NCBI RefSeq assembly: GCF_030294945.1
Contig: NZ_AP018448.1
Location: forward strand, 11,318,501 to 11,382,500
Reading direction: 5' to 3'
DNA length: 64,000 nucleotides
Source: Streptomyces graminofaciens
GTDB taxonomy: Bacteria; Actinomycetota; Actinomycetes; Streptomycetales; Streptomycetaceae
In this document: positions 8,443-29,415 of the stretch, piece by piece
Numbering within the stretch: position 1 is the first letter of the stretch
Layout of the letters: each line of letters starts with the position of its first letter
The notes under the pieces: model-generated
Told to the model about the DNA's origin: nothing
Seen by the model: the letters and a program-made list of their open reading frames with translations, nothing else
The model's database searches: none
Position numbers and translations under genes: made by a program

Positions 8443-10197
8443 TCAGCCGGCCGCCGCGAGGAACTGCGTGGCCGCCAGCTCCGCGTACAGCGGGTCGCCC
8501 GCCACCAGCTCCCGGTGCGTGCCGACGGCTCGTACCCGGCCCGCGTCCATCACCACGATCCGGTCGGCCATCGTCACCGTCGACAGCCGGTGCGCGACGA
8601 CCAGCACCGTGGTCGTACGGGCCACATCGGCGACCGTGTCGCGCAGCGCCGCCTCGTTCACCGCGTCCAGCTGACTGGTCGCCTCGTCGAGCAGCAGCAG
8701 CCGTGGCCGGCGCAGCAGGGCACGGGCGATGGCCACGCGCTGGCGTTCGCCGCCGGAGAGCTTGGTGCCCCGGTGGCCGACCAGGGTCTCCAGACCCTGG
8801 GGGAGCTTCGCGACCAGGCCGTCGAGCCGGGTCGTCTTCAGCACCCGAGTGAGCTCGTCCTCGTCGGCGTCCGGGTTGCCCAGCAGCAGGTTGTCGCGCA
8901 GGGAGCCCGACAGCACGGGCGCGTCCTGCTCGACGTAACCGATCGCGGCGCGCAGCCGGGGCAGTTCCCACTCGGTGACCTCGCGGCCGTCGACCGTGAT
9001 GACGCCCGCCTCGGGGTCGTAGAACCGCTCGATGAGCGAGAACACCGTGGTCTTGCCCGCGCCGGAGGGGCCGACGAACGCGGTCATGCCGCGCGCGGGG
9101 ACCGTGAAGGTCACGCCGTGGTGGACGTACGGCAGGTCGTCGGCGTACCGGAAGCGGACCTCGTCGAAGGAGAGCGAGGCCGGTGCCTCGTCGGGGGCGG
9201 GCAGCGGGGCGGGGCGGGCGGCCGGTTCGGCGGGCAGGTGCAGCGCCTCCTGGATGCGGGAGAGCGCGGCGGCGCCGGTCTGGTACTGGGTGATCGCGCC
9301 CACGACCTGCTGGATCGGCGACATCAGATAGAAGACGTACAGCAGGAACGCGACCAGCGTGCCCACGTCGATGGCCTCCGTCGCGACCCGGGCGCCGCCC
9401 ACCGCGAGCACGGTGATGAAGGCGATCTGCATGGCGAGCCCGGCCGTGTTGCCCGCGGCCGCCGACCACTTGGCCGCCCGTACGCTCTGCCGCCACGACT
9501 CCTTCGCCGCCGCGTGGATCGTCTCCTCCTCGCGGTGCTCGGCGCCGGACGCCTTGACCGTGCGCAGCGCGCCGAGGATCCGCTCCAGCGAGGCACCCAT
9601 CGCCCCGACCGCGTTCTGCGCCGCCCGGCTCGCCCGGTTGATGCGCGGCACGATCACCCCGAGCACCACGCCCGCGCCCGCGATCACGCCGAGGGTGACC
9701 GCCAGCAGCACCGGGTCGACCAGACCCATCATCACGACCGTCGCGACGAGCGTGAGACCGCCGGTGCCGAGGCCCACCAGCGAGTCGGTGGTGACCTCGC
9801 GCAGCAGGGTCGTGTCGGAGGTGATCCGCGCCATCAGATCGCCCGGCTCGCTGCGGTCCACCGCCGTGATCTTCAGCCGCAGCAGATACGACGACAGGGC
9901 GCGCCGCGCGCCGAGCACCACCGACTCGGCCGTGCGGCGCAGCACGTACGAACCCAGGGCGCCCACCGACGCGTTGGCGACGACCAGCACGGACATCAGC
10001 AGCAGCGCCCAGGTGACCGTCCGGTCGTGCGACAGGTCGTCGATCAGCTCCCGGGCCACCAGCGGCAGGGCGAGCCCCGCGGCACCGGTGACGAGCGACA
10101 ACACCGCGCCCAGCAGCAACGCCCACCGGTGGGGCCGTACATAGCCCAACAGCAGCCGCCACGTGGGCTGTTCGGCTCTTGCTTCAAGGGTGCTCAC
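8443..10197 (-). CDS. ABC exporter (fused permease and ATPase)
   Basis: This 584-residue half-transporter has six predicted membrane helices in the first 320 residues ([43 protein letters not shown] and others) followed by an ATPase domain. The ATPase has Walker [10 protein letters not shown], signature [15 protein letters not shown], Walker [10 protein letters not shown] and the switch His in VVAHRLSTV. It should work as a homodimer exporting a drug, lipid or peptide. I chose the GTG at 10197 because AGGAG precedes it; the frame is open further upstream. Debris lies on both sides, so substrate cannot be inferred from context. Confidence 0.88.
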
Positions 10198-10287
10198 GAG
10201 GCTCCTCGCGACAGTGGGGGAGTGGGGACCGGGGGCGGAATCCACAGCCTACGTCTGCGGCGAGGAGCACCGGGAACGCGTTCTCTG

Positions 10288-10606
10288 TCAGCCGACCAGC
10301 GACCTCCGGTCCCGGGCCGTGCGAGGACCTGCGCGGTGCCGTCGCCCCGGCTGGCACTCGTCGAGCATCAGGGCCGGCACGTCGCCGGGGCCCGGCTCCA
10401 GATACGTGCCCACCCCGTCCTGCCCCAGCAGTTCGACGCCCGTCCGGGCCTCGCAACTCCAGCTCGCTGAGCCCGTCGTGGGTGATCTCGCACGGCAGCA
10501 TGCGGCGCGGTGTCACGCCGGTCGCCTCGCCCCCGCCGGCCAGGGCGGCGTCCGCGACCGCGCCCATGAGGCCGACGTGCGCACCGAACGCCGCTCCATC
10601 CTCCAC
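10288..10606 (-). pseudogene. Decayed LOG-family (lysine-decarboxylase-like) gene remnant
   Basis: The minus strand from 10606 to about 10457 encodes FGAHVGLMGAVADAALAGGG and ATGVTPRRMLPCEITHDGL. This matches the central block of LOG-family phosphoribohydrolases, where (Y)GG.VGLMG..ADAAL..GG...GVIPR is conserved. The essential PGG.GT..E motif that should follow is absent. After about 10450 the protein-like reading continues in another frame as ELLGQDGVGTYLEPGPGDVP and stops at 10288, which is not LOG sequence. I read this as a truncated LOG gene joined to another gene fragment. Confidence 0.6.
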
Positions 10607-10626
10607 GGAGGTCCATCAGAAGGGCA

Positions 10627-11211
10627 CTACCGTGCCCGGAGCGCCGTGAGTGTCGCGTCCAGGTCGGCCGGGCGCGGACGGTTGTGCGGCAGCTTCCCCA
10701 GGGCCACGGCCATGCCGCACGTGTCGGTGACCGCGGAGAAGACCAGACCGCCCGCGATGCCCGCGGCGAGCAACTGCCAGGCGGGGTGCAGCAGTCCGAG
10801 GGCGAGCCCGGCGATGACGAGCGTGCCGGCGGTGAAGCGGACCTGGCGCTCCATCGCCCAGCCGGCCCGCGCGGTCGTGGCCGGCCGGTGCAGTTCGTGC
10901 CCCCGGGAGGCCCAGCCGCTCGTACCGCCCGAGAGCGTGGCGGCCGTGACGCCGTGTTTCGCGAGCAGCGCGCACGCCTTCTCGGAGCGGGCCCCCGACG
11001 CGCAGACCATCAGCAGAGCGGCGTTCGACTCCTTCAGGGCGGGCAGCGCGCGCTCCAACTGGTCGAGCGGGAGGTTCAGGGCGCCGGGCAGATGCCCCGA
11101 GGCGTACTCGCCGGGGGTGCGGACGTCGAGGACGGTCAGCTCGGGCAGCCGCTCGCGGGCCTGGTCGGCGTCGAGGGAGCCGGCGGCGTCGGGGGTACGG
11201 GGAGTGGGCAT
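10627..11211 (-). CDS. Rhodanese with C-terminal membrane domain (DUF2892-like)
   Basis: This 194-residue protein begins with a rhodanese domain (LTVLDVRTPGEYASGHLPGALNLP; active-site Cys in VCASGARSE) that should carry a persulfide. It is followed at residues 120-165 by two hydrophobic helices of the DUF2892 type (FTAGTLVIAGLALGLLHPAW, LLAAGIAGGLVF). It would present sulfurtransferase activity at the membrane. It is divergent from the CsoR/CstR-type repressor, whose operator and a set of 11-bp repeats lie in the gap, so it is probably part of that regulator's sulfide/persulfide response. Confidence 0.85.
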   Translation of the reverse strand: MPTPRTPDAAGSLDADQARERLPELTVLDVRTPGEYASGHLPGALNLPLDQLERALPALKESNAALLMVCASGARSEKACALLAKHGVTAATLSGGTSGWASRGHELHRPATTARAGWAMERQVRFTAGTLVIAGLALGLLHPAWQLLAAGIAGGLVFSAVTDTCGMAVALGKLPHNRPRPADLDATLTALRAR

Positions 11212-11242
11212 GGTGTGCTGCGATCCTTTCGGGAGGGGAAAC

Positions 11243-11642
<400 letters not shown>

Positions 11643-18961: not shown

Positions 18962-19837
18962 ATACGCCTGCCCGCCCGTCTCACCGAGCGCACCACCCCC
19001 TGGTCACAGGACCGGGGCGGTGCCGGGGACGCCGACCTCGACCTCGACCTCACCCTCGCGGTGACGGCGGCACCGCACGCCGCCTACCTCGCGGCACTCG
19101 ACCGGGCGGCCGGCCGCAGCGCCGCCCTGCTCGTCGACTCGGGTGTGGCGAGCGCGGGCCTGCCCCGGCTGCGCGAACTGCTCGCCGAGCGCTACACCCG
19201 CGCGGGCCTCGCCACCCGGCCCGAGCAGATCCTCGTCACCTCCGGCGCCCAGTCCGCACTCACTCTCCTCACCGACCAGCTGCACACCGACCGCGGGGCA
19301 CCGGTCCTGATCGAGAGCCCCACCTACCCGGGCGCCCTGTCCGTCCTGCGCCACCGCCGGGCCCGTCTGCTGCCGGTCCAGATCCTCTGGAGCGGCCTGC
19401 GCGTCGGCTGGATCAGGGCCACCGCGGAGGTGGTACGGGCCCTGCGGCGTAACCCACTCCAGGCGCAGCTCTCACCGCTGCCCCTGGAACAGCTCATCGC
19501 CGCCGAGCTGTTGGGGGAGGGCCTGGACGAGATCCTCGTCGACCGCCGGACACGTCTGCGCGCACAACGCGACCACCTGGCCTCCCTGCTCGCCGACAGC
19601 GGTTGGACGTACACCGTGCCGGAGGGCGGCTTGTCGCTGTGGATCCGCCTGGACGACCCTACGACGGCCGCGGAACTGGAAAGGAGGGCGGCAGCGCAGG
19701 GATTGGTGGTGACGCCGGGACCCCTGTTCGCGTCGGACCGCACCACGCTGAGCCGGCACTTGAGGCTCCCGTTCACGGCGACGCAAGAGACGCTGACCAG
19801 AGCAGTGGATATTCTGCGGCGCCTTGAACCCCGGTGA
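18962..19837 (+). pseudogene. Broken MocR-type (GntR-aminotransferase) regulator
   Basis: Reading from about 18962, the frame gives the linker RLPARLTERTTPWSQDRGG and then an aminotransferase-like domain (GLPRLRELLAERYTRAGL, PEQILVTSGAQSALTLL). MocR proteins have an N-terminal winged helix followed by a PLP-binding domain. Here the winged helix is missing. The text also jumps from HRRARLLPV straight to ILWSGLRVGWIRA, where about 80-90 residues with the PLP lysine (normally just before ILW.GLRVGW) should be. The deletion kept the frame. The product cannot bind DNA or PLP normally. A GTG at 19061 could still start a 258-residue remnant. Confidence 0.75.
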
Positions 19838-19848
19838 ACCGGCGCCCC

Positions 19849-20643
19849 TCAAGGGGTGCGGGGTTGACCCATCGCCCCCACGATCCCGTCCCACAACCGA
19901 GACCTCGCCTCCAGCGCGACCACCGCCGTCTCCACCGCCTCCTCCCACCGCCGTTCCTCATCCCCGCACAGATCCGCCACCATCTGCATGGCCATCGGTG
20001 TGTGCTCCTCCCCGTCCACCTCGATGTGGCGCGCGAGATAGTCGCAGAACAACGGGAACCGCTCCGTCCCCTCCTTCTTGATCACCTGATCGAACATGTC
20101 GGGGATCAGATCCTCACGGGAGAACGCGAACGCGGCGGCCCGGCAGTGCAACGGCCGCTCCGCGATGATCCCGAAGGTCGTACGGACGAACTCGGCGGCG
20201 GGCTGCGGCACTTGGGCGACCCGAAGCGCCGCAGACACGTCGTGCCCCTCCCCGATCAGCCCGAGGAACGTGTCGAGCCGCCCGGTGTCCGCGCCGGCCT
20301 CGCCCATGCCGGCCCGGTACAGCTCGAAGTGACTGGTGAAGCCGCCGTTCAACTCGTCGCTCTCCTCGACCAGCACGATGTCGTTGACGAGCCGTCGGCC
20401 GACCGCGGATCCGCGCGGCACCCACGGCACGTCGACACACGTCAGATCGCGCTGAAGGGACTTGAGGAGCGACATGAAGTCCCACACCGCGAAAACGTGG
20501 TGCTCCATGAATACCGCCATGTCCGCGCGGTCGTCGATCCGCTCGTAGATCGGATGCGCGGTGACTTCCTTCCGCACGGGCTCGATCGCGGCCCGCGCCC
20601 GGTCGATTCCCTCGTGCCGCATGTCCCAGTCGTACCTGGACAT
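19849..20643 (-). CDS. DUF3050 protein, heme-oxygenase-like fold (possible diiron oxidase)
   Basis: This 264-residue protein matches DUF3050, an all-helical family that I place with the heme-oxygenase-like proteins. Several members of that fold are non-heme diiron oxidases or oxygenases. Possible metal ligands are Glu47 and His48/His49 ([12 protein letters not shown]), Glu107 (SHFELY), and His206, Asp210 and His214 ([13 protein letters not shown]), which is the spacing expected for such enzymes. AAGGAGG precedes the ATG. It is divergent from the aminobenzoate operon across an AT-rich gap, so it may be the tailoring oxidase of that pathway. Function is inferred, and a structural role cannot be excluded. 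Confidence 0.7.
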
Positions 20644-20864
20644 AGCCCTCCTTCGCTTTCTCGGCGGAGCCCTTGTCGGGATGGTGCGCCTTTACCTGTT
20701 CGCCGGACAAGCGACTTCCGAGGATTAGTGAAAATTACCTATTCGCCATGCCTCACAGAAGACGCCAAGCTGGCTGAAAGGTAGTCATATTTGAACGATC
20801 TGGACACTTGAAAAAGTTCGTTGAAGATTTGAACGGGGCGGCACTTCTTCGCGTATTCGTCGGC
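20644..20864. promoter_or_regulatory. AT-rich divergent promoter region of the aminobenzoate cluster
   Basis: This 221-bp gap between the DUF3050 gene and the ABM gene is far lower in GC than its surroundings (stretches such as GATTAGTGAAAATTACC and AGTCATATTTGAACG). Both outward promoters should lie here. TTGAAC occurs at 20791 and again at 20834. I found no clear palindrome and no regulator gene inside the cluster. Confidence 0.5.
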
Positions 20865-21452
20865 GTGAGCAGGAATCCCGTTACCGTCACCATCGCGTAC
20901 CACGTGGTGCCGGGGCGCGAGGCCGACTTCCACTCGTGGGGGTGGGCCGTGCTGCGCGCGAGTGCGCAGCAACCGGGTTTTCTGGGGGGTGGCGTGCTCG
21001 TCGACGGAGAGGCGGAGTGGCATGTTGTCTACCGTTTCGACGGCGACGATACGGCTCGGGCCTGGGAGAACTCCCTTGTCTGGGCACAGTGGGCGGCCCG
21101 CGCCGAAGGGCTGGCCCGGGAGACCGGGCGGCGCAGCATCGCGGGTTCCAAGGCCTGGTTCGACCTCCAGACCTCCCGGGCCCCCGCGCCCGCGCCACCA
21201 GGCCCGCCCCCCAAATGGAAACTGTGGTTGGTGAATATGAGCGCGGTCTTCCCACCCGTGCTGTTATTCAATCTCCTGATACTTCCTTACCTCAGCGAGC
21301 TCAATCCACTTTTCCGTACGCTGTTGCTTTGTCTGGCCGTTACGGCCATCGTCACCTGGATCCTCATGCCGAGGCTCCAGCGATTCCTCAAGAAATGGCT
21401 GTATCCGCCGCTTCAGGCGCTCCGTGGCCGGCACAAACGACGGACCGCCTAG
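20865..21452 (+). CDS. Antibiotic-biosynthesis-monooxygenase (ABM) domain protein with two membrane helices
   Basis: This 195-residue protein has an N-terminal ABM-type dimeric alpha-beta barrel (VTVTIAYHVVPGREADFHSW, then GFLGGGVLVDGEAEWHVVYRF). A Pro-rich linker leads to two C-terminal membrane helices (VFPPVLLFNLLILPYL and LLLCLAVTAIVTWILM) and a basic tail. ABM proteins include cofactor-free quinone-forming monooxygenases, but many have other roles. The start is uncertain: the GTG at 20865 fits the domain, and TTG codons further upstream are possible. Codon 134 is TTA (21264-21266), predicting dependence on the bldA tRNA. Confidence 0.7.
   Translation: MSRNPVTVTIAYHVVPGREADFHSWGWAVLRASAQQPGFLGGGVLVDGEAEWHVVYRFDGDDTARAWENSLVWAQWAARAEGLARETGRRSIAGSKAWFDLQTSRAPAPAPPGPPPKWKLWLVNMSAVFPPVLLFNLLILPYLSELNPLFRTLLLCLAVTAIVTWILMPRLQRFLKKWLYPPLQALRGRHKRRTA
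21264..21266 (+). other. TTA (bldA) codon in the ABM gene
   Basis: In-frame Leu codon TTA within VLLFNLL. In Streptomyces this codon is read by the developmentally controlled bldA tRNA. Confidence 0.8.
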
Positions 21453-21483
21453 GTCCGAGAACGATCAGAGGGAGGTGGGCGGG

Positions 21484-23601
21484 TTGAAGACCTTGCTCAT
21501 CGACAATTATGACTCGTACACCTACAACCTGTTCCAGCTGATCGCCGAGGTCAACGGCGAGGAACCGGTTGTGGTGCTCAATGACGCCGCCGTGGATGAC
21601 ATTCCGGATCTGCGGGAATTCGACAATGTGGTGGTGTCGCCGGGTCCCGGCCACCCCGCCGAACCCCGCGACTTCGGCATCGCCGCGCGCCTGATCGCGG
21701 AGGCCACGATCCCCGTCCTGGGCGTCTGCCTCGGCCATCAGGGCATCGCGGCGGGAGAGCGGGCCGACGTCGAGCCGGCGCCATGGCCCCGCCACGGGCA
21801 CATCTCGACCGTCCGGCACGACGGCCGCGACCTGTTCCGGGGGCTGCCGCAGAACTTCAGCGTGGTCCGCTACCACTCGCTGTCCGTGCGCGAGCCGCTG
21901 CCGCCGACCCTGGAGGCGACCGCCTGGGCCGAGGACGGCGTCCTGATGGGGCTGCGCCACCGCACCCGGCCGCTGTGGGGCGTGCAGTTCCACCCCGAGT
22001 CGATCCTCACCGACCACGGCCACCGGCTGCTGGTCAACTTCCGCAACCTCACGGCGGAACGGGCCGGCAGCCCCCGTACGAAGAACACGGCCGTCACCCC
22101 GCTCGGCGCCGGGATCCCCCGCCCGCGCCGGGCCCCCGGCCCCATGTACAAGCTGCACACCCGCCGAATCGCCTCCGCCGTCGACACCGAGGCAGCCTTC
22201 ACCCGGATGTGTGCCGACGCGCCGCGCGCGTTCTGGCTGGACAGCTCGCGGGTCGAGGAGGGCCTGTCGCGGTTCTCGTTCTTCGGCGACGGCACCGGCC
22301 CGCTCGCCGAGTTCGTCCGCTACGACGTCGCCACCGGCCTCTGCGAGATCGAGCGGGCCGGGCGGCCCACCCGCAAGGTCAAGGCGAGCGTCTTCGACTA
22401 TCTGAAGCGGCAGCTGGCGAGCCGCCGGGTGGACGCGAGCGGCCTGCCCTTCGACTTCACCGGCGGCTACGTCGGCTACTTCGGGTACGAGCTGAAGGCG
22501 GACTGCGGTTCCCCGAACCAGCACGAGGCCGACACCCCGGACGCCTGCTGGCTCTTCGCCGACCGGCTGATCGCGGTGGACCACGAGGAGGGCGACACCT
22601 ACGCCGTCTGCCTCGCCGAGGACACCCCGCAGGCCGCCCGGGAGGCCGGCGACTGGCTCGACGCCGCGATCGCCCAGCTCACCTTCGTGTCCACGGAAAC
22701 CCCGGCCGCGGCCCCGTCGGGCACGCCGTACCCGCGCGCCGCCGAGCCCTGGCTCGTCCGCGACCGCGCCACCTACCTCGCCGACATCGAGGCCTGCAAG
22801 ACGGAGCTCAACGCGGGCACCAGCTACGAGGTCTGTCTCACCAACGCGGTCCGTTTACCCGCCCCGTACGACCCCTACGACTTCTACCGGGTGCTGCGCC
22901 GCACCAACCCGGCCCCGTACGCGGCCTTCCTCCGCTTCGGTGACCTCGACGTGGCGGGCTCGTCGCCCGAACGGTTCCTGCGGATCACCCCGGACGGCAT
23001 CGCCGAGGCCAAGCCCATCAAGGGCACCGCGCCGCGCGGCGGCACCCCGGAGGAGGACGACCGGCTGCGCGACGAGCTGGCCGCGGACGCCAAGACCCGC
23101 GCCGAGAACCTGATGATCGTCGACCTGCTCCGCAACGACCTGGGCCGAGTCTCGAAGACCGGGTCCGTCCGGGTCTCCCGCCTCATGGCGACGGAGTCGT
23201 ACGCCACCGTGCACCAGCTGGTGTCGACGGTCGAGGGCAGGCTCCGCGAGGGCACCGACGCGGTGGACTGCGTACGCGCCTGCTTCCCCGGCGGATCGAT
23301 GACCGGGGCGCCCAAGCTCCGCACGATGGAGATCATCGACGAGCTGGAGACCGAGGCCCGGGGCGTGTACTCCGGGGCGCTCGGCTACCTCGGCTGCGGC
23401 GGCGGCGCCGACCTCAACATCGTCATCCGTACGGCCGTGTTCCAGGCGGGCCGGATGCACCTCGGCGCGGGCGGCGCCATCGTCCTCGACTCGGACCCCG
23501 CCGCCGAGTACGACGAGATGCTCCTGAAGACCGCGGCCCTCATGCGCGCCCACCGCGACCACGCCTCCGCCCCGTCCGTCACGGAGGAGCCGACACGATG
23601 A
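21484..23601 (+). CDS. pabAB: Aminodeoxychorismate synthase, fused PabA-PabB
   Basis: This 705-residue bifunctional enzyme makes 4-amino-4-deoxychorismate from chorismate and glutamine, the first step to 4-aminobenzoate. Residues 1-190 are the glutamine amidotransferase (TLLIDNYDSYTYNL; Cys82 in GVCLGHQG; His170 and Glu172 in FHPES). The rest is the chorismate-binding half (AGSSPERFL, PIKGTAPRG, FPGGSMTGAPKLRTMEIID). Anthranilate synthase is the alternative, but a PabC-type lyase in the same operon favours aminodeoxychorismate. The TTG at 21484 is preceded by GGGAGG; the frame extends upstream to 21424. Codon 458 is TTA. Its stop overlaps the next start (ATGA). Confidence 0.9.
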   Translation: MKTLLIDNYDSYTYNLFQLIAEVNGEEPVVVLNDAAVDDIPDLREFDNVVVSPGPGHPAEPRDFGIAARLIAEATIPVLGVCLGHQGIAAGERADVEPAPWPRHGHISTVRHDGRDLFRGLPQNFSVVRYHSLSVREPLPPTLEATAWAEDGVLMGLRHRTRPLWGVQFHPESILTDHGHRLLVNFRNLTAERAGSPRTKNTAVTPLGAGIPRPRRAPGPMYKLHTRRIASAVDTEAAFTRMCADAPRAFWLDSSRVEEGLSRFSFFGDGTGPLAEFVRYDVATGLCEIERAGRPTRKVKASVFDYLKRQLASRRVDASGLPFDFTGGYVGYFGYELKADCGSPNQHEADTPDACWLFADRLIAVDHEEGDTYAVCLAEDTPQAAREAGDWLDAAIAQLTFVSTETPAAAPSGTPYPRAAEPWLVRDRATYLADIEACKTELNAGTSYEVCLTNAVRLPAPYDPYDFYRVLRRTNPAPYAAFLRFGDLDVAGSSPERFLRITPDGIAEAKPIKGTAPRGGTPEEDDRLRDELAADAKTRAENLMIVDLLRNDLGRVSKTGSVRVSRLMATESYATVHQLVSTVEGRLREGTDAVDCVRACFPGGSMTGAPKLRTMEIIDELETEARGVYSGALGYLGCGGGADLNIVIRTAVFQAGRMHLGAGGAIVLDSDPAAEYDEMLLKTAALMRAHRDHASAPSVTEEPTR
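22855..22857 (+). other. TTA (bldA) codon in pabAB
   Basis: In-frame Leu codon TTA within AVRLPAPYDP, residue 458 of the fused synthase. Confidence 0.85.
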
Positions 23602-25226
23602 CCACGACACCGCAACGCACGCTGCTCCCGGCCGCCCTGATCGGCGTCGGCGGCGAGCCCGGCGACTCCGTCGGCCTCCCGCTCGACGGCGTCGGCCCGG
23701 AAGACCCCGCGGCCGAACCGGCCCTCACCGCCGAAGCCACCGCCCCCGGCAACCTCGCCGCGCACCTCGCCGCCCTCGCCGAGCGGCGCGGATGGAACGA
23801 CCGGCCCGCCTTCCACCAGGGCCACCGCGCCTACTCCCACGGCGAGGTGCACGACCTGGCGGCCCGCGCCGCGACCGTGCTGGCCGACCACGGGGTCCGC
23901 CCCGGCGACCGGGTCGTGCTCGCGCTGCCGGACTCCGTCACATGGGCGGCCGCGTTCCTCGCCATCGCCCGACTGGGCGCCGTCGCGGTGCTGGTCAACC
24001 CCGAACTCACGCCGCCGGAGCACCAGTTCATGGCGGAGGACACCGACGCCACGCTCTGTGTCACCGGCCCCGGCCTCGACGACCACTTCGCCCGCCGCAC
24101 CCGCCTCGGCGCCGACCAGCTCGTCGCCCTCACCCGCACGGCCGCGCCCACGACCGACGCCCACCCGGTCGACGCGCACACCCCGCTCTACATCCAGTAC
24201 ACCTCCGGAACCACCGGCCGCCCCAAGGGAGTCGTGCACGTCCACGGCGACCCGAAGACCTACCACGACCTCATCGGCCGACGCCTGCTGCGCATCACCC
24301 CCGACGACGTCACCTTCTCGGTCTCCCGGCTCTACTTCGCCTACGGCTTCGGCAACGCCTTCGTCTTCCCCCTCTTCTCCGGGTCCAGCGCCGTCCTCAC
24401 CGACCGCCGGCCCACCCCGGCCGCCGTGGACGAACTCGTCGCCCGGCACCGCGTCACCCTGCTCTACTCGGTGCCGTCGGCGTACGCGGCCCTGGTGGCC
24501 GACCGGTCAGGCGGACACGAGCACTGCTTCGCCTCCGTACGTGCGGCCGTGTCGGCCGGCGAGGGCATGCCCGGCGTACTCGGCAAACAGGTCACCGAAC
24601 TGCTCAACGCCCCCGTACTGGAGCAGATCGGCTCGACGGAGGCCGGACACGCCTTCTGCGCCAACGGCTTCGACCACAACCACCCCGGTACGGTCGGCCG
24701 TCCCGTCCCCGGCTTCGAGGTCGAGCTGCGCGACCGCGCCGGCACCCCTGTGGAGGACGGCGAGGAAGGCGAACTCTGGGTGCGCGGCCCGACGGTGACC
24801 CCCGGCTACCTCAACCGGCCCGAGGAGACCGAGCACGCCTTGGTCGGCGGCTGGCTCGCCACCCGGGACCGGGCCCGCCGCGAACCGGACGGCACCTTCC
24901 GGCATCTGGGCCGCGCCGACGACATGGAGATGGTCGGCGGTATCACCGTCTCCCCGCTGGAGGTGGAGGCCCTGCTGCGCGGCCACCCGTCGGTCCGGGA
25001 CGTCGCCGTGGTCGCCGTCACCGACGAACGCGGCGCCAACAAACTGCGGGCCTTCGTCATCCCCGTCCCGCCCATCGCGGTGGGCCTGGAAGCCGAACTG
25101 ATCTGCCTGGCCCGCGAGAACCTCGCCGCCTTCAAGGTGCCCCGCAGCGTGAGCTTCGTACCGTCACTGCCGCGCACCGCGACCGGCAAGTTACGGCGTC
25201 ACCTCGTCCGGAAAGGGGCGTGGTGA
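23598..25226 (+). CDS. Benzoate-CoA ligase-family enzyme (probable aminobenzoate-activating)
   Basis: This 542-residue AMP-forming ligase activates a carboxylic acid as acyl-AMP and then normally forms a CoA thioester. Motifs are YTSGTTGRPKGVVHVHGD (P-loop), the benzoate-ligase stretch RLYFAYGFGNAFVFPLFSG, IGSTEAGHAF and the C-terminal catalytic lysine region RTATGKLRRH. The middle region is typical of benzoate- and 4-hydroxybenzoate-CoA ligases, so 4-aminobenzoate or its hydroxylated form is the likely substrate here. It overlaps pabAB by four bases. Codon 532 is TTA, eleven codons before the stop, an odd place for regulation. Confidence 0.85.
   Translation: MTTTPQRTLLPAALIGVGGEPGDSVGLPLDGVGPEDPAAEPALTAEATAPGNLAAHLAALAERRGWNDRPAFHQGHRAYSHGEVHDLAARAATVLADHGVRPGDRVVLALPDSVTWAAAFLAIARLGAVAVLVNPELTPPEHQFMAEDTDATLCVTGPGLDDHFARRTRLGADQLVALTRTAAPTTDAHPVDAHTPLYIQYTSGTTGRPKGVVHVHGDPKTYHDLIGRRLLRITPDDVTFSVSRLYFAYGFGNAFVFPLFSGSSAVLTDRRPTPAAVDELVARHRVTLLYSVPSAYAALVADRSGGHEHCFASVRAAVSAGEGMPGVLGKQVTELLNAPVLEQIGSTEAGHAFCANGFDHNHPGTVGRPVPGFEVELRDRAGTPVEDGEEGELWVRGPTVTPGYLNRPEETEHALVGGWLATRDRARREPDGTFRHLGRADDMEMVGGITVSPLEVEALLRGHPSVRDVAVVAVTDERGANKLRAFVIPVPPIAVGLEAELICLARENLAAFKVPRSVSFVPSLPRTATGKLRRHLVRKGAW
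25191..25193 (+). other. TTA (bldA) codon in the first ligase gene
   Basis: In-frame Leu codon TTA within TGKLRRHL, directly after the catalytic lysine codon. Confidence 0.85.
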
Positions 25227-25229
25227 GCC

Positions 25230-26858
25230 ATGACCGGCACCAGCCCCGTCGTCGTCGCCACCGCAGAAAGGACTCGCCCCATGCGAGACCAGCAACCCCA
25301 GGCCCTGCTCTCCGGTCGCGGCTTCTACCTGGGCTCGATGTTCAGGGAGGCGGCCGACCGCCACGGAGCCGTCTTCGTCACCCTGGACCGGCCCCTCGAC
25401 GTCCTCCCCGGCCTCGGGCGCGACCTCAGTTACACGACCCTCGCGGACGTGGTCGACGAACTCTCCGGCCGCCTGTGGGAGGCGGGCGTACGCCCCTCCG
25501 AGGAGGTGGTCGTCCACAAGACGGACAACGTCGACATCGTGTTGCTGACCTGCGCGCTCTCCCGTATCGGCGCCGTCCCCGTCCTCCTCTCGCCCGGCCT
25601 CGCGGGCCCGGTCGTCGGCCAGCTCCTCGGACGCCTCCACCGGCCCTGGCTGATCACCGACCGGGCCAAGCTCGAAGGTCCGCTGAGCGACGTCGAACTC
25701 ACCGGCCTCGTCCGCCGCACGCTCTCCGTCGACGACGCCCCCGGCGCCGAACCCCTGGAGAAGTACGCCGGCGCCGCCACCCCGGCCGCCGTGCGACTGC
25801 ACCCCCGCGACCCCTCCCTCATCACCCACAGCTCCGGCACCACCGGCTTGCCCAAGCTGGCCGTGCACTGCCCGAACACCATGTGGAACCGGCTCGTCCC
25901 GCAGAAGGCGATGGGCTGGCCCACCCGGGGCGAGACCGCCGCGCTGCACATGTCGTTCGTGCACTCGCGCTTCTATCACCTGCTCGGCGTCCTGCTGCAC
26001 TTCGGCAGCCCGCTCGTCCTCATCATCGACCCGGAACCGTCGAACGTCGGCCCACTGCTGGCCCGCCACCGCCCCGGCATCGTCGAGACCCACCCCAACA
26101 CCTTCGTCCTGTGGGAGGAGCTGGCCGACGCGCCCGGCGCCCCGCTGTCCCGCGTCCGCTCGTACGGCTCCACCTTCGACGCCATCCACCCGCGTACCGT
26201 GCAGCGGCTCCTCGACGCCTCGAAGCGGCGCTCGCCCTGGCTGATCCAGCTGTACGGGCAGAGCGAGACGGGCCCGGTCGCCTTCCAGTGGTTCACCCGT
26301 CGCAGCGCCGCCCGCGCGGACGGCCGCCGGGTCGGCATCGGCATCCCCGGCTTCACCCGCGTACGCGTCGCCGACGACTCCGGCCGCAAGGTCGGCCCCG
26401 GCACGGCCGGCCGGATCGAGGCCCGCACCCGCGGCCGTATCCTCACCTACCTCGGTGCCCGCGACCGCTATCTGCGCCAACTCAGCGACGGCTGGTGGGA
26501 GATGGGCGACATGGGCTACCAGAGCCGCTGGGGCGCCCTGTACCTCATCGACCGCGAGATCGACCAGATCGACTCCGTGCACAGCAACCTCGAGATCGAG
26601 GACACCCTCATGTCCCGCCTGGAGGAGCTGCGCGAGGTCGTCATCGTGCCCGGCGTCGACCGCGAACCCGTGCCCGTGGTGTGCGTCCGCGGCGAACGCC
26701 CGCTGGACCCGGCGCGCTGGCGCGAGGCCACGGCAGACCTGCCGACCATGGCCGAGCCCAGGCAGTGGCGGTTCGAGGAGCTGCCGATGACCTCCACCTG
26801 GAAGGTGAAGCGCGTGGAGATCACCCGCATGCTGACCGAGAGCGCCCGCGCGTCATGA
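25230..26858 (+). CDS. Second AMP-forming acyl ligase
   Basis: This 542-residue member of the ANL superfamily has the P-loop ITHSSGTTGLPKLAVH, LYGQSETGPVAF, a degenerate hinge region (YLIDREIDQIDSVHSN) and a C-terminal lysine in TSTWKVKR. It is only distantly like the first ligase. It keeps the residues for adenylation, and may form a CoA thioester or directly an amide or ester. No carrier protein or condensation domain is nearby. It starts 3 bp after the previous stop if the ATG at 25230 is used. The ATG at 25281, preceded by AAAGGA, is an equally good start. Confidence 0.8.
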   Translation: MTGTSPVVVATAERTRPMRDQQPQALLSGRGFYLGSMFREAADRHGAVFVTLDRPLDVLPGLGRDLSYTTLADVVDELSGRLWEAGVRPSEEVVVHKTDNVDIVLLTCALSRIGAVPVLLSPGLAGPVVGQLLGRLHRPWLITDRAKLEGPLSDVELTGLVRRTLSVDDAPGAEPLEKYAGAATPAAVRLHPRDPSLITHSSGTTGLPKLAVHCPNTMWNRLVPQKAMGWPTRGETAALHMSFVHSRFYHLLGVLLHFGSPLVLIIDPEPSNVGPLLARHRPGIVETHPNTFVLWEELADAPGAPLSRVRSYGSTFDAIHPRTVQRLLDASKRRSPWLIQLYGQSETGPVAFQWFTRRSAARADGRRVGIGIPGFTRVRVADDSGRKVGPGTAGRIEARTRGRILTYLGARDRYLRQLSDGWWEMGDMGYQSRWGALYLIDREIDQIDSVHSNLEIEDTLMSRLEELREVVIVPGVDREPVPVVCVRGERPLDPARWREATADLPTMAEPRQWRFEELPMTSTWKVKRVEITRMLTESARAS

Positions 26859-28036
26859 CGACCCCCGTCCTGGTCGTGGGCGCGGGCCCCGTCGGTCTCT
26901 CGGCGGCCCTCGCCCTGCGCGCCCACGGACTGCCCGTGGTCCTGCTGGAGGCGGACCCCGAGGGCCGCGAACGCCCCGGCAGCCGCGCCCTGTTCGTCCA
27001 CCGCGAGACCCTCGAACTCCTCGACGGCATGAGCCCGGGACTCGCGCTGGAGATCACCGAGTACGGCAGCACCTGGCACACCAAGCGGACCCTGTACCGG
27101 GGCCGTGAGGTGTACGCCCGCACCTTCCCGCCGCCCACGGGAACCCCGCCCTTCACCAGCCTCCGCCAGGTCGACACCGAGCGTTTCCTGCTCACCGCCT
27201 GCCGGGACGCGGGTGTTCGGTTCGTGTGGGACGCCAAGGTGACCGGCGTACGCGTCGACCCGGCCGGGGTGACGCTGACCGACGAGAGCGGGCGCACCTG
27301 GACCGGCACCCACGCCGTCGCCGCCGACGGCGCCCGCTCCGCCGTACGCCGTGAACTCGGCATCCCCCTGGAGGGCACCCACGGCGACGGCTTCCACGTC
27401 GTCGCGGACATCGCCGACATCCCGGGCGCCGAACTGCCCCTGGAGCGCGTCTTCCACTACGAACACCCGGGCCTCGGCGGCCGCAGCGTGATGCGCGTGC
27501 CGTTCACCGGCGGCTTCCAGCTCGACCTCCAGTGCCGCGACGACGACGCGCCGGAGGAGTACGGCAGCGAGGACGCCGTGCGCCGCTGGCTGCCGGCGGT
27601 CGTCGGGGACGGGTACGGCGAGCGCGTCCTGTGGGTGTCGACGTACCGCTTCCTGCGGAAGGTCGCCGCCTCCTTCACCGACCCGCGGCACCGGGTGCTG
27701 CTCGTCGGCGAGGCGGCCCATCTCTTTCCGCCGTTCGGGGCGCGCGGCATGAACAGCGGCATCGCCGACGCCGCCGCCGCGGCCCGGGCGATCGCCGACG
27801 GCACGCCGGACGCGGTGGCCTCCTTCGCCGAACTCCGCCGCTCGGCGGGCCTGTTCAACAGCGCCGCCGCCGGAACCGCCCTGGAGCACCTGCGGCCCAC
27901 ACGCAGTATCGTCCGCGTCAAACAACGCGCGGCGGCGGCCCTCGCCCCGGTCCTGCCGCGCTGCGGCGCGTGGCTGGAGCACGCGCCCTACGGACCCCGG
28001 CACGGCTCACCGGCCGCCGCCGGCCGCAAGTACTGA
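26855..28036 (+). CDS. Class A FAD-dependent aromatic monooxygenase
   Basis: This 393-residue flavoprotein has the FAD dinucleotide motif VLVVGAGPVGLSAALALRAHG at the start, the DG motif VAADGARSAVRRELGI, and the second FAD motif LLVGEAAHLFPPFGARGMNSG. It belongs with 4-hydroxybenzoate 3-hydroxylase and phenol-type hydroxylases. In this cluster the likely substrate is 4-aminobenzoate or a ligated form. Ring hydroxylation is one option and decarboxylative hydroxylation to 4-aminophenol, known for a fungal 4-aminobenzoate hydroxylase, is another. It overlaps the preceding gene (ATGA). I saw no TTA codon in it. Confidence 0.85.
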   Translation: MTTPVLVVGAGPVGLSAALALRAHGLPVVLLEADPEGRERPGSRALFVHRETLELLDGMSPGLALEITEYGSTWHTKRTLYRGREVYARTFPPPTGTPPFTSLRQVDTERFLLTACRDAGVRFVWDAKVTGVRVDPAGVTLTDESGRTWTGTHAVAADGARSAVRRELGIPLEGTHGDGFHVVADIADIPGAELPLERVFHYEHPGLGGRSVMRVPFTGGFQLDLQCRDDDAPEEYGSEDAVRRWLPAVVGDGYGERVLWVSTYRFLRKVAASFTDPRHRVLLVGEAAHLFPPFGARGMNSGIADAAAAARAIADGTPDAVASFAELRRSAGLFNSAAAGTALEHLRPTRSIVRVKQRAAAALAPVLPRCGAWLEHAPYGPRHGSPAAAGRKY

Positions 28037-28047
28037 GAGGAATCCCA

Positions 28048-28842
28048 TTGACTCAACCTGCCATCGCGGAGGAACTGCTGGCATGGTCGCCCGATCGCGG
28101 CCTCACCCCATGCCCGGCGGAGAGCGGACGGCTGCTGGTCGCGGACTCCTGGTTACTGCGCGACGGCCGGGTGCGCGGCTTCGACCGCCACCGCGAACGG
28201 TTCCTCCGGGCCTGCGGCGACTGCGGCGCGCCCGAGCCACGGCGGCTGGTCGAGTTCTGGCAGGACATGACCGCCGCGCTGCCGCGCACGGGTGAGTGGT
28301 TCCCGCGCGTGGAACTCGCCCGGGGCTCGTTGGAGCTGAGGCTCCTGCTGCGGCACGCCCCGCCCCTCGGCACCGACATACGGGTCTGGGCGGCCGGCCA
28401 GCCCGACCCGCGTACCGTGCCCCGCCGCAAGGGACCGGACCTCGACGCCCTGGCCCGGGTGCGCGGCCGGGCGTCCGGCGTGGGCGCCGACGAGGCCGTG
28501 CTGATCGCCCCCTCCGGGGTGGTGCTGGAGGCCCCCACCGCCAGCATCGTGTGGTGGGAGGACGACACCCTCTGTATGCCGCCGCCCCGGCTGCCCGTGC
28601 TCGCCGGAGTCACCGTGGGGCTCGTCCAGGAGCACGCGGCACACACCGGTGTCCGGGTCGCCCACCGGGAACGCTCCCTCGCGGAGCTGGACGGTCGCGA
28701 GGTCTGGCTCGTCAACGCCCTCCACGGGATCCGCCCCGTGAGCGCCTGGACCGGCCGCCCGATGACCGCGGGCCCGGCCGTACACGCCCCGGAGTGGCGG
28801 AAATGGCTGGACGGCATCCTGGAACCACTGCCGGAGAAGTGA
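28048..28842 (+). CDS. pabC: Class IV aminotransferase-fold, PabC-type aminodeoxychorismate lyase
   Basis: This 264-residue PLP enzyme should release pyruvate from aminodeoxychorismate to give 4-aminobenzoate. The PLP lysine is in PRRKGPDLDAL and the glutamate region is EAPTASIVWW, both in class IV positions; the tail EVWLVNALHGIRPVSAW is typical of PabC. A D-amino-acid or branched-chain aminotransferase is the alternative, made unlikely by the pabAB gene in the same operon. The TTG start follows GAGAGGA. Codon 36 is TTA (28153-28155). Confidence 0.85.
   Translation: MTQPAIAEELLAWSPDRGLTPCPAESGRLLVADSWLLRDGRVRGFDRHRERFLRACGDCGAPEPRRLVEFWQDMTAALPRTGEWFPRVELARGSLELRLLLRHAPPLGTDIRVWAAGQPDPRTVPRRKGPDLDALARVRGRASGVGADEAVLIAPSGVVLEAPTASIVWWEDDTLCMPPPRLPVLAGVTVGLVQEHAAHTGVRVAHRERSLAELDGREVWLVNALHGIRPVSAWTGRPMTAGPAVHAPEWRKWLDGILEPLPEK
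28153..28155 (+). other. TTA (bldA) codon in pabC
   Basis: In-frame Leu codon TTA within DSWLLRDG, residue 36, early in the gene where bldA control is usually effective. Confidence 0.85.
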
Positions 28843-28929: not shown

Positions 28930-29415
28930 TTACTTCTGGACGGGCTGGTAAGCCCCCGGAACCATCCGCGTCGCTATGGCGATCCGGTTGTACGCGTTGA
29001 TGACGGTGGCCGCCCAGATCAGCGCCGCGACCTGCTCGTCGTCGAAGACCTCCGCGGCCTGCGCGTAGACCTCGTCGGGCACATGCCCGTCGTGGACCAG
29101 CGTCACTGCCTCGGTCAACGCCAGCGCGGCCCGCTCACGGGCGTTGAAGAAGGGCGTCTCGCGCCAGGCGCTCAGGGCGTAGATCCGCTGCTCGGTCTCG
29201 CCCGCCGCGCGGGCGTCCTTGGTGTGCATGTCCAGGCAGAACGCGCAGCCGTTGATCTGGGACGCGCGAATCCTGATCAGTTCGAGGATTTCCGGTTCGA
29301 CCTTCGCGTCCCGCGCGGCGGAAACGGCCGCGCCGTGCAGGGAGCCCATCGCCCCGGACACGTCGGGGGTGATTTTCTTCAGGGGCACGCGAGATATGGA
29401 ATCGCTGTTGCTCAT
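28930..29415 (-). CDS. Carboxymuconolactone decarboxylase/AhpD-like protein
   Basis: This 161-residue protein has the AhpD core: EILELIRIRASQINGCAFCLDMHTKDAR, with the redox CxxC (CAFC) and following His, then the helical tail VINAYNRIAIATRM. Such proteins are peroxidase-like thiol reductants, though many are of unknown role. No ribosome binding site precedes the ATG. It instead has a good promoter ending seven bases before the start, so it is probably leaderless. It converges on the aminobenzoate operon and is separated by a strong terminator, so I do not count it in that pathway. Confidence 0.85.
   Translation of the reverse strand: MSNSDSISRVPLKKITPDVSGAMGSLHGAAVSAARDAKVEPEILELIRIRASQINGCAFCLDMHTKDARAAGETEQRIYALSAWRETPFFNARERAALALTEAVTLVHDGHVPDEVYAQAAEVFDDEQVAALIWAATVINAYNRIAIATRMVPGAYQPVQK

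Follow-up and report, generated by a model that had tools for sequence, protein, structure and literature searches.

For the arylamine diazotase clusters named in the literature consulted, the starting compound is 3-amino-4-hydroxybenzoate (3,4-AHBA), an anthranilate or an aminocinnamate, and most of these clusters have nitrite genes of their own. The related enzyme Tri17 is an ATP-dependent N-nitrosylase that forms diazo groups from anilines, among other substrates (PMC11705231). Here we describe an operon of Streptomyces graminofaciens, in a stretch of 64,000 nt (G000:C1:11318501-11382500, hereafter the window) from a single-contig genome of 11.6 Mb, that combines genes for the synthesis of 4-aminobenzoate (PABA), those for PabAB and PabC, with a gene for a flavin monooxygenase (FMO) and with two genes for AMP-forming enzymes, ligA and ligB. 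A preliminary description of the window took both enzymes for acid-activating ligases that couple PABA with an amine or alcohol; this suits ligA, which falls at the border of the benzoate-CoA ligase family, whereas ligB groups with diazotases by its signature, its phylogeny and the gene neighbourhood of its relatives. We now favour a reading as PABA synthesis plus a CreM-type diazotase plus one acid-activating ligase, which we take to be probable for the diazotisation step and less so for any particular product.

ligB and the ATP-dependent diazotases

The product of ligB shows the P-loop, catalytic Glu and C-terminal Lys of the ANL fold. When solved structures were ranked by sequence, Tri17 (9bq0/8tf7) came first with 102.8 bits, followed by 9xb8 (88.6 bits) and, lower down, by the amide synthetase McbA (6sq8, 58.6 bits) and the diazotase CmaA6 (8ztz, 57.0 bits), the identities of Tri17, McbA and CmaA6 being those of their PDB titles. 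HMMER alignments place HSSGTTG and DAxH at the ligB positions in Tri17, 9xb8 and CmaA6, whereas McbA, as aligned, reads TSGTTG, with neither the P-loop His nor DAxH. The combination of a P-loop His (H[ST]SGTTG) and DAxH is common to ligB, Tri17, 9xb8, CmaA6 and the AvaA6 orthologue of the same genome; this signature was derived in the present analysis and not taken from the literature. Both elements are missing in ligA and in 16 out of 16 other AMP-forming enzymes taken from the genome, a control that started from 20 regions, 15 of which yielded the 16 open reading frames (ORFs) while five (L138, L139, L145, L152, and L153) gave none under the length and P-loop filter. Within the ligB family, the multiple alignment shows the P-loop His in all 41 rows, L111 and L130 varying elsewhere in the loop, and DAxH in 38 of them (L108 and L110 read DAVY, and L112 DVLH). 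Separately, the protein of PDB 9xb8/9xbs, named only FadD, has the P-loop His and DAxH in common with Tri17 and CmaA6; it is a possible additional enzyme of N-N bond formation.

ligB is not an AvaA6 orthologue, since it scores 63.9 bits with the AvaA6 equivalog NF058622, far under the cut-off of 975. No protein named CreM appeared among the best 120 of 1787 matches of a profile search.

We scanned one genome per species; of the 99 stretches found to encode a relative of ligB, the 80 best were kept as window-type loci. A tree of 48 rows was built with eight of these loci, the window ligB, 33 other relatives (the AvaA6 orthologue included) and six other ligases. ligB was placed, with support 100/99, in a clade of 26 rows together with relatives linked to nitrite genes, while the AvaA6 orthologue of the genome forms a long, basal branch on the side of ligB and is separate from ligA (99/97). 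Of 125 columns that are invariant in the nine CreD-linked members of the clade, one of them linked by a lyase fragment only, 108 are also invariant in all nine window-type rows. Eleven of the 17 clade rows that are not of the window type have a gene for a nitrosuccinate lyase or a NasC-like nitrate reductase nearby, and two of these 11 carry the same PabAB-ligA-ligB-FMO-PabC cassette. A lyase lies within 25 kb on the contig in nine rows (L131, L122, L123, L132, L124, L126, L127, L134, and L135; that of L123 is a fragment below the cut-off, and L125, separated by 11.6 kb from the L124 lyase, was left out of the count), and L115 and L117 add to the count by their NasC-like genes; neither gene was found near the ligB relatives of L118, L119, L120, L121, and L133.

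The lyases beside ligB relatives score above the cut-off of NF052556 (650 bits) in four plasmid clusters, those of Mg1 (802 bits), NBC_00388 (763), NBC_00493 (795), and NBC_01298 (808). Seven of 25 listed plasmid matches were opened (H1, H3, H8, H9, H14, H16, and H25, with H1 and H3 apparently of one lineage) and a CreE/CreD-type pair is annotated in five of them, the lyases of four having been scored; the CreE label of these FAD/NAD(P)-binding neighbours comes from position, length and mutual similarity, with no NCBIfam model matching. NasC-like genes lie near the ligB relatives of L115, L117, and L124 (copies 66-69% identical), and the two scored reach 748 and 717 bits, under the cut-off of 1100. 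In a sample of the class, 29 of 394 genomes contain a ligB relative at E <= 1e-60. In five of these (G317, G243, G143, G346, and G073) a lyase scoring over the cut-off lies no more than 25 kb away, in G293 and G362 a weaker or partial one is nearby, and the five window-type genomes (G000, G018, G208, G261, and G348) have none within that distance of ligB. The ligB relative of NBC_00388 sits with an anthranilate synthase and that of L125 with a chorismate-binding/GATase enzyme and a DAHP synthase, and we infer that many of these contexts would yield an aromatic or amino-bearing product. One subclade (L134, L135, L126, L127, and L120) is a separate, uncharacterised cluster family, in which the ligB relative occurs with a type III polyketide synthase (PKS)-like gene and a DegT aminotransferase; a lyase lies within 25 kb in four of its five members and prenyl-related genes occur in L120, L134, and L135.

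Its signature, its place in the tree and the genes around its relatives all group ligB with ATP-dependent diazotases, so that the second half of the chemistry is likely to be N-N bond formation. On these comparisons of sequence, ligB probably diazotises an amine derived from PABA, irrespective of what then becomes of the diazo group.

Nitrite supply and the case for an acid-activating ligB

Several observations weigh against a diazotase. The top Foldseek matches of the ligB model are the amide bond synthetases McbA and ShABS, and neither Foldseek nor VIA tells ligB apart from amide synthetases, several ANL types receiving similar ranks. Likewise, tblastn detected CreE/CreD in none of the 80 window-type loci, and the operon is without a nitrite gene. 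Among 295 Streptomyces genomes (seven of which fail the bar of 90% completeness and 5% contamination), the lyase does not track the presence of ligB, with 15 of 40 carriers versus 66 of 255 others (Fisher p = 0.13; two of the 81 positive genomes are slightly below the cut-off); the 40 carriers are defined at E <= 1e-180 for ligB alone and not for the whole cassette. The nitrite source is the weak point of the diazotisation reading. The Foldseek result, the lack of a nitrite gene in the operon and the lack of co-occurrence with the lyase would all suit an acid-activating, McbA-like ligase that couples PABA, oxidised or not, to an amine, an alcohol or a second PABA. We nevertheless consider this role for ligB unlikely, as Tri17 ranks well above McbA by sequence, neither the P-loop His nor DAxH occurs in the aligned McbA or in any of the genome's paralogues that were compared, and many members of the clade adjoin nitrite genes.

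If ligB is a diazotase, nitrite could arrive in trans. The 25 ligB carriers without a lyase encode NarG (9/25), a NasC-like enzyme (22/25) or either of them (23/25); NirB is present in all 25, a count of little weight, taken in ligB carriers only. In the genome of the window, a lyase over the cut-off is encoded at 9.68 Mb, within an ava-like cluster that lies 1.7 Mb from the operon; NasC-like genes are present at 8.73 Mb and in L115. PMC11705231 describes one producer with creE/creD at a separate locus, and diazo clusters without these genes that may rely on nitrate reduction; a supply in trans has precedent in these cases, and by analogy the same may hold for the window operon.

Two other loci of this genome are of interest in themselves. 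L116 (G000:C1:9680001-9700000) is the ava-like cluster, with the AvaA6 orthologue (1039 bits, over the cut-off), the over-cut-off nitrosuccinate lyase, a CreE-like gene, a ketosynthase and an aldolase-like gene related to BagB/FevI. L115 (G000:C1:8238001-8258000) contains at its positions 9763-11331 a second ligB relative (57-58%), some 2.3 kb from a NasC-like gene and 6.6 kb from a gene for a 3,4-AHBA-synthase-like 3-dehydroquinate synthase II (NF041224, 678 bits; cut-off 750), and may represent a cluster of the cremeomycin or crexazone kind in which a nitrate reductase replaces CreE/CreD.

Organization and conservation of the operon

Profile matches confirmed all of the genes named in the preliminary description (DUF3050, ABM, PabAB, the two ligases, FMO, and PabC), and the unit remains a dedicated, PABA-fed operon without PKS or nonribosomal peptide synthetase (NRPS) genes; the list had overlooked the conserved, convergent CMD/AhpD gene (Table 1). 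From ABM to PabC, the intergenic gaps on the forward strand are of 31, -4, 3, -4, and 11 bases, so that translational coupling, also proposed earlier, is credible.

Table 1. Genes of the PABA operon and its partners (positions within the window).
Feature	Position	Strand	Remarks
DUF3050 protein	19849-20643	-	PF11251, 318 bits; haem-oxygenase-like family; facultative partner
ABM-like protein	20808-21452	+	PF03992, 20.6 bits (just below the cut-off of 23.1); TTG start assumed
PabAB, fused aminodeoxychorismate synthase	21484-23601	+	TIGR00553, 354 bits (cut-off 328.4); TTG start assumed
ligA, AMP-forming aryl acid ligase	23598-25226	+	TIGR02262, 375.8 bits
ligB, probable ATP-dependent diazotase of arylamines (AMP-forming)	25230-26858	+	Tri17 similarity, signature, clade
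FMO, group A flavin monooxygenase, PHBH-like single chain	26855-28036	+	PF01494
PabC-type aminodeoxychorismate lyase, class IV pyridoxal phosphate (PLP) fold	28048-28842	+	PF01063, 92.8 bits; TTG start assumed
CMD/AhpD-fold protein	28930-29415	-	PF02627, 71 bits; TIGR00778, 66 bits; convergent

PabAB, for which an alternative start is possible at 21424, contains the GATase, Anth_synt_I_N, and Chorismate_bind domains of an aminodeoxychorismate synthase. The PabC equivalog models give 32-55 bits with the window PabC, below their cut-offs of 177-278, so that its role rests on the class IV PLP fold and on its position beside PabAB. Assignment of ligA to the benzoate-CoA ligase family is borderline (the TIGR02262 cut-off is 375.25 bits); it has the ANL C-terminal domain (PF13193, 62.6 bits) and matches the benzoate-CoA ligase 4eat with 300 bits. 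The ABM-like protein has a hydrophobic C-terminal third, with hydropathy windows above 1.4 starting at residues 141-145 and 165-173, and its gene is retained alongside the cassette across relatives. The CMD/AhpD protein carries the motif CAFC..H, read as CAFCLDMH. Two overlapping ORFs were rejected as genes on frame and codon-position GC: 27532-28842 as drawn, which is only partly PabC, and the 1414-aa ORF at 23792-28036. The flanking SDR, orf181, YkuD, and GFO genes were also rejected as cluster members; they are common mainly to the nearest relatives, which delimits the unit to about 20.8-29.4 kb plus DUF3050. Next to the operon, a short forward-strand ORF (window 19061-19837) is similar to MocR-type regulators in their aminotransferase portion (NF052290, 228 bits, against a cut-off of 487) and is perhaps a truncated regulator.

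The association of these genes is not due to chance. Of the 80 window-type loci, 63 extend for at least 4.5 kb to either side of the start of ligB; 60 of them keep, by tblastn, all of ABM, PabAB, ligA, FMO, PabC, and CMD beside ligB, the departures being L046, L053, and L077; the closest named relatives include S. stelliscabiei, with 93% identity in ligB. The cassette was also found beyond this set, a recurrence in other actinobacteria that had gone unnoticed in the preliminary description and that places it twice beside potential nitrite-supplying genes. Streptomyces sp. Mg1 shows the same gene order together with CMD, a DAHP synthase, a CreE-like gene and CreD, the lyase scored above, at identities to the window of 58% (CMD), 61% (PabAB), 56% (ligA), 55.5% (ligB), 59% (FMO), and 46% (PabC); no ABM match was found in the Mg1 stretch. 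ADI95-16 repeats the arrangement of Mg1 by annotation. The PabAB-ligA-ligB-FMO-PabC order occurs as well in G197 (44-64% identity), with a DAHP synthase and a NasC-like reductase, while the near-identical G339 and G056 show PabAB-ligA-ligB-O-methyltransferase-DUF3050 with a divergent FMO-PabC pair. In L131, L137, and L158 (plasmids pSMg1-1 and pADI95-16a) the PABA cassette lies inside a larger plasmid cluster with a fatty acyl-AMP ligase (FAAL), three desaturases, an acyl carrier protein (ACP), a rubredoxin and a cytochrome P450, which recalls polyyne genes; its product is possibly a diazo-polyyne hybrid.

These data also bear on whether PabAB and PabC feed folate only, the remaining genes being catabolic. 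The window PabAB is the only place in the whole genome above the TIGR00553 cut-off, as such a role would have it; yet folate cannot generally depend on an operon whose ligB occurs in only 40 of the 295 Streptomyces genomes, and the cassette is found in four contexts, two of which include a DAHP synthase. We give this explanation hardly any credit.

The DUF3050 protein also matches PF14518 (32.6 bits; like PF11251, over the cut-off) and a solved relative, 9vwb (202 bits), and nine residues (E93, E94, E97, H105, H166, E177, H206, D210, and H214) are invariant over 12 aligned rows; it is a candidate haem-oxygenase-like diiron oxidase. Its gene is divergent within 1.5 kb in 37 of the 62 loci with enough upstream DNA, with no match in the other 25, and it also lies about 1.2 kb or less from the ligB relatives of L118, L119, and L120. 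The family is that of MgoB, from the mgo operon, whose insertion mutant still made some mangotoxin in an experiment in which the authors doubted the disruption (PMC3298696, in part). The mgo operon is homologous to ham, the source of the diazeniumdiolates fragin and valdiazen, which encodes the heme-like oxygenase HamA, only putatively a DUF3050 protein (PMC5878181, in part). By analogy, this kinship may be a second and weaker link of the operon to N-N chemistry. It would also be in line with an N-oxidised route in which the FMO or DUF3050 hydroxylates the nitrogen of the aryl amine and the second nitrogen is then supplied by ligB or DUF3050, forming an aryl diazeniumdiolate, a cupferron-like metal chelator. 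This route appears very improbable to us, given the 25 loci without DUF3050 and the mangotoxin still made by the mgoB mutant, and for these same reasons DUF3050 is treated here as an accessory.

Proposed pathway and comparison with known systems

We propose, tentatively and with somewhat less than even confidence in the whole, that a CreM-type diazotase working on housekeeping nitrite produces an aryl diazonium or quinone diazide derived from PABA, which would be conjugated through ligA, with CMD, ABM and a facultative DUF3050 oxidase dealing with the reactive product. By their families, PabAB and PabC would convert chorismate to PABA, and the PHBH-like FMO would hydroxylate PABA to an aminophenol, retaining the carboxylate if it acts at C3 and releasing CO2 if it acts at C1. 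The ATP-dependent activation of nitrite by ligB and its joining to the aryl amine would then give the diazonium or quinone diazide, as the signature, the clade and the neighbourhood of its relatives suggest, with nitrite provided by nitrate reduction or, as may be the case in this genome, by the lyase of the ava-like cluster. ligA would activate the carboxylate before or after diazotisation, and CMD, ABM and the facultative DUF3050 might tailor or contain the reactive product, which is the weakest part of the scheme.

The diazo group might have another fate, in that the diazonium made by ligB could lose N2 to leave a nitrogen-free (hydroxy)benzoate, to be loaded on CoA by ligA. Such a deamination shares the ligB step with the proposed pathway and differs in what becomes of the diazo group; AvaA6 and CmaA6, of the avenalumate and p-coumarate pathways, set a precedent for it (PMC10777205 and PMC11705231, in part), and the family of ligA agrees with it. 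We think it rather improbable: there is no obvious dediazotising reductase among the families of the operon (AvaA7 itself was not searched for), and building PABA only to strip its amine seems wasteful.

The earlier statement that no described pathway has exactly this gene set still holds for the literature searched, which mostly excludes subscription papers, and in it we also recognised no PABA-based diazo cluster. If the proposal is right, the operon would represent a common diazo pathway of Streptomyces, an overlooked source of the rare diazo group, and a diazotase specific for PABA would be a useful biocatalyst. Being without CreE/CreD, it would escape genome mining that relies on these genes, and it raises the question of whether ordinary nitrate nutrition feeds N-N bond formation in secondary metabolism.

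In the cremeomycin pathway a flavin enzyme adds a hydroxyl group. The cremeomycin cluster resembles the window operon in joining dedicated aminobenzoate synthesis to the ATP-dependent diazotisation of a hydroxylated aminobenzoate by CreM (PMC11705231 and PMC11429834, in part), although it starts from 3,4-AHBA and carries CreE/CreD, whereas the window operon would make PABA via PabABC and has no nitrite genes. The penzonemycin cluster shares with it an arylamine acid, a CreM homologue (Pzm18, 48% to CreM; PMC9323291, Table 3) and a separate acyl-CoA ligase, and differs in its 3-hydroxyanthranilate precursor, its acetolactate synthase and the lack of PabABC. Penzonemycin-like neighbours (SRPBCC, a PIG3-type quinone reductase, CreE, and CreD) are shared out among L121-L124, whose ligB relatives are 48-49% identical to ligB. 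In the tasikamide aha cluster (Aha11) a hydroxylated, carboxyl-esterified aminobenzoate is likewise diazotised (PMC11705231, in part), but the substrate is an alkyl 5-hydroxyanthranilate that a Japp-Klingemann reaction couples to a peptide of NRPS origin. Tri17, from triacsin biosynthesis, is the best solved sequence relative of ligB and also diazotises anilines (PMC11705231, in part), yet its native step is the formation of an N-hydroxytriazene on a hydrazone and it is 23% identical to ligB in a structural alignment. Closest in organization are the plasmid clusters of Mg1 and ADI95-16, for which no description was found in the literature searched: they share with the window operon the PabAB-ligA-ligB-FMO-PabC order and CMD, and differ from it by their extra CreE/CreD-type genes, DAHP synthase, second FMO, and FAAL, desaturase, ACP and rubredoxin genes.

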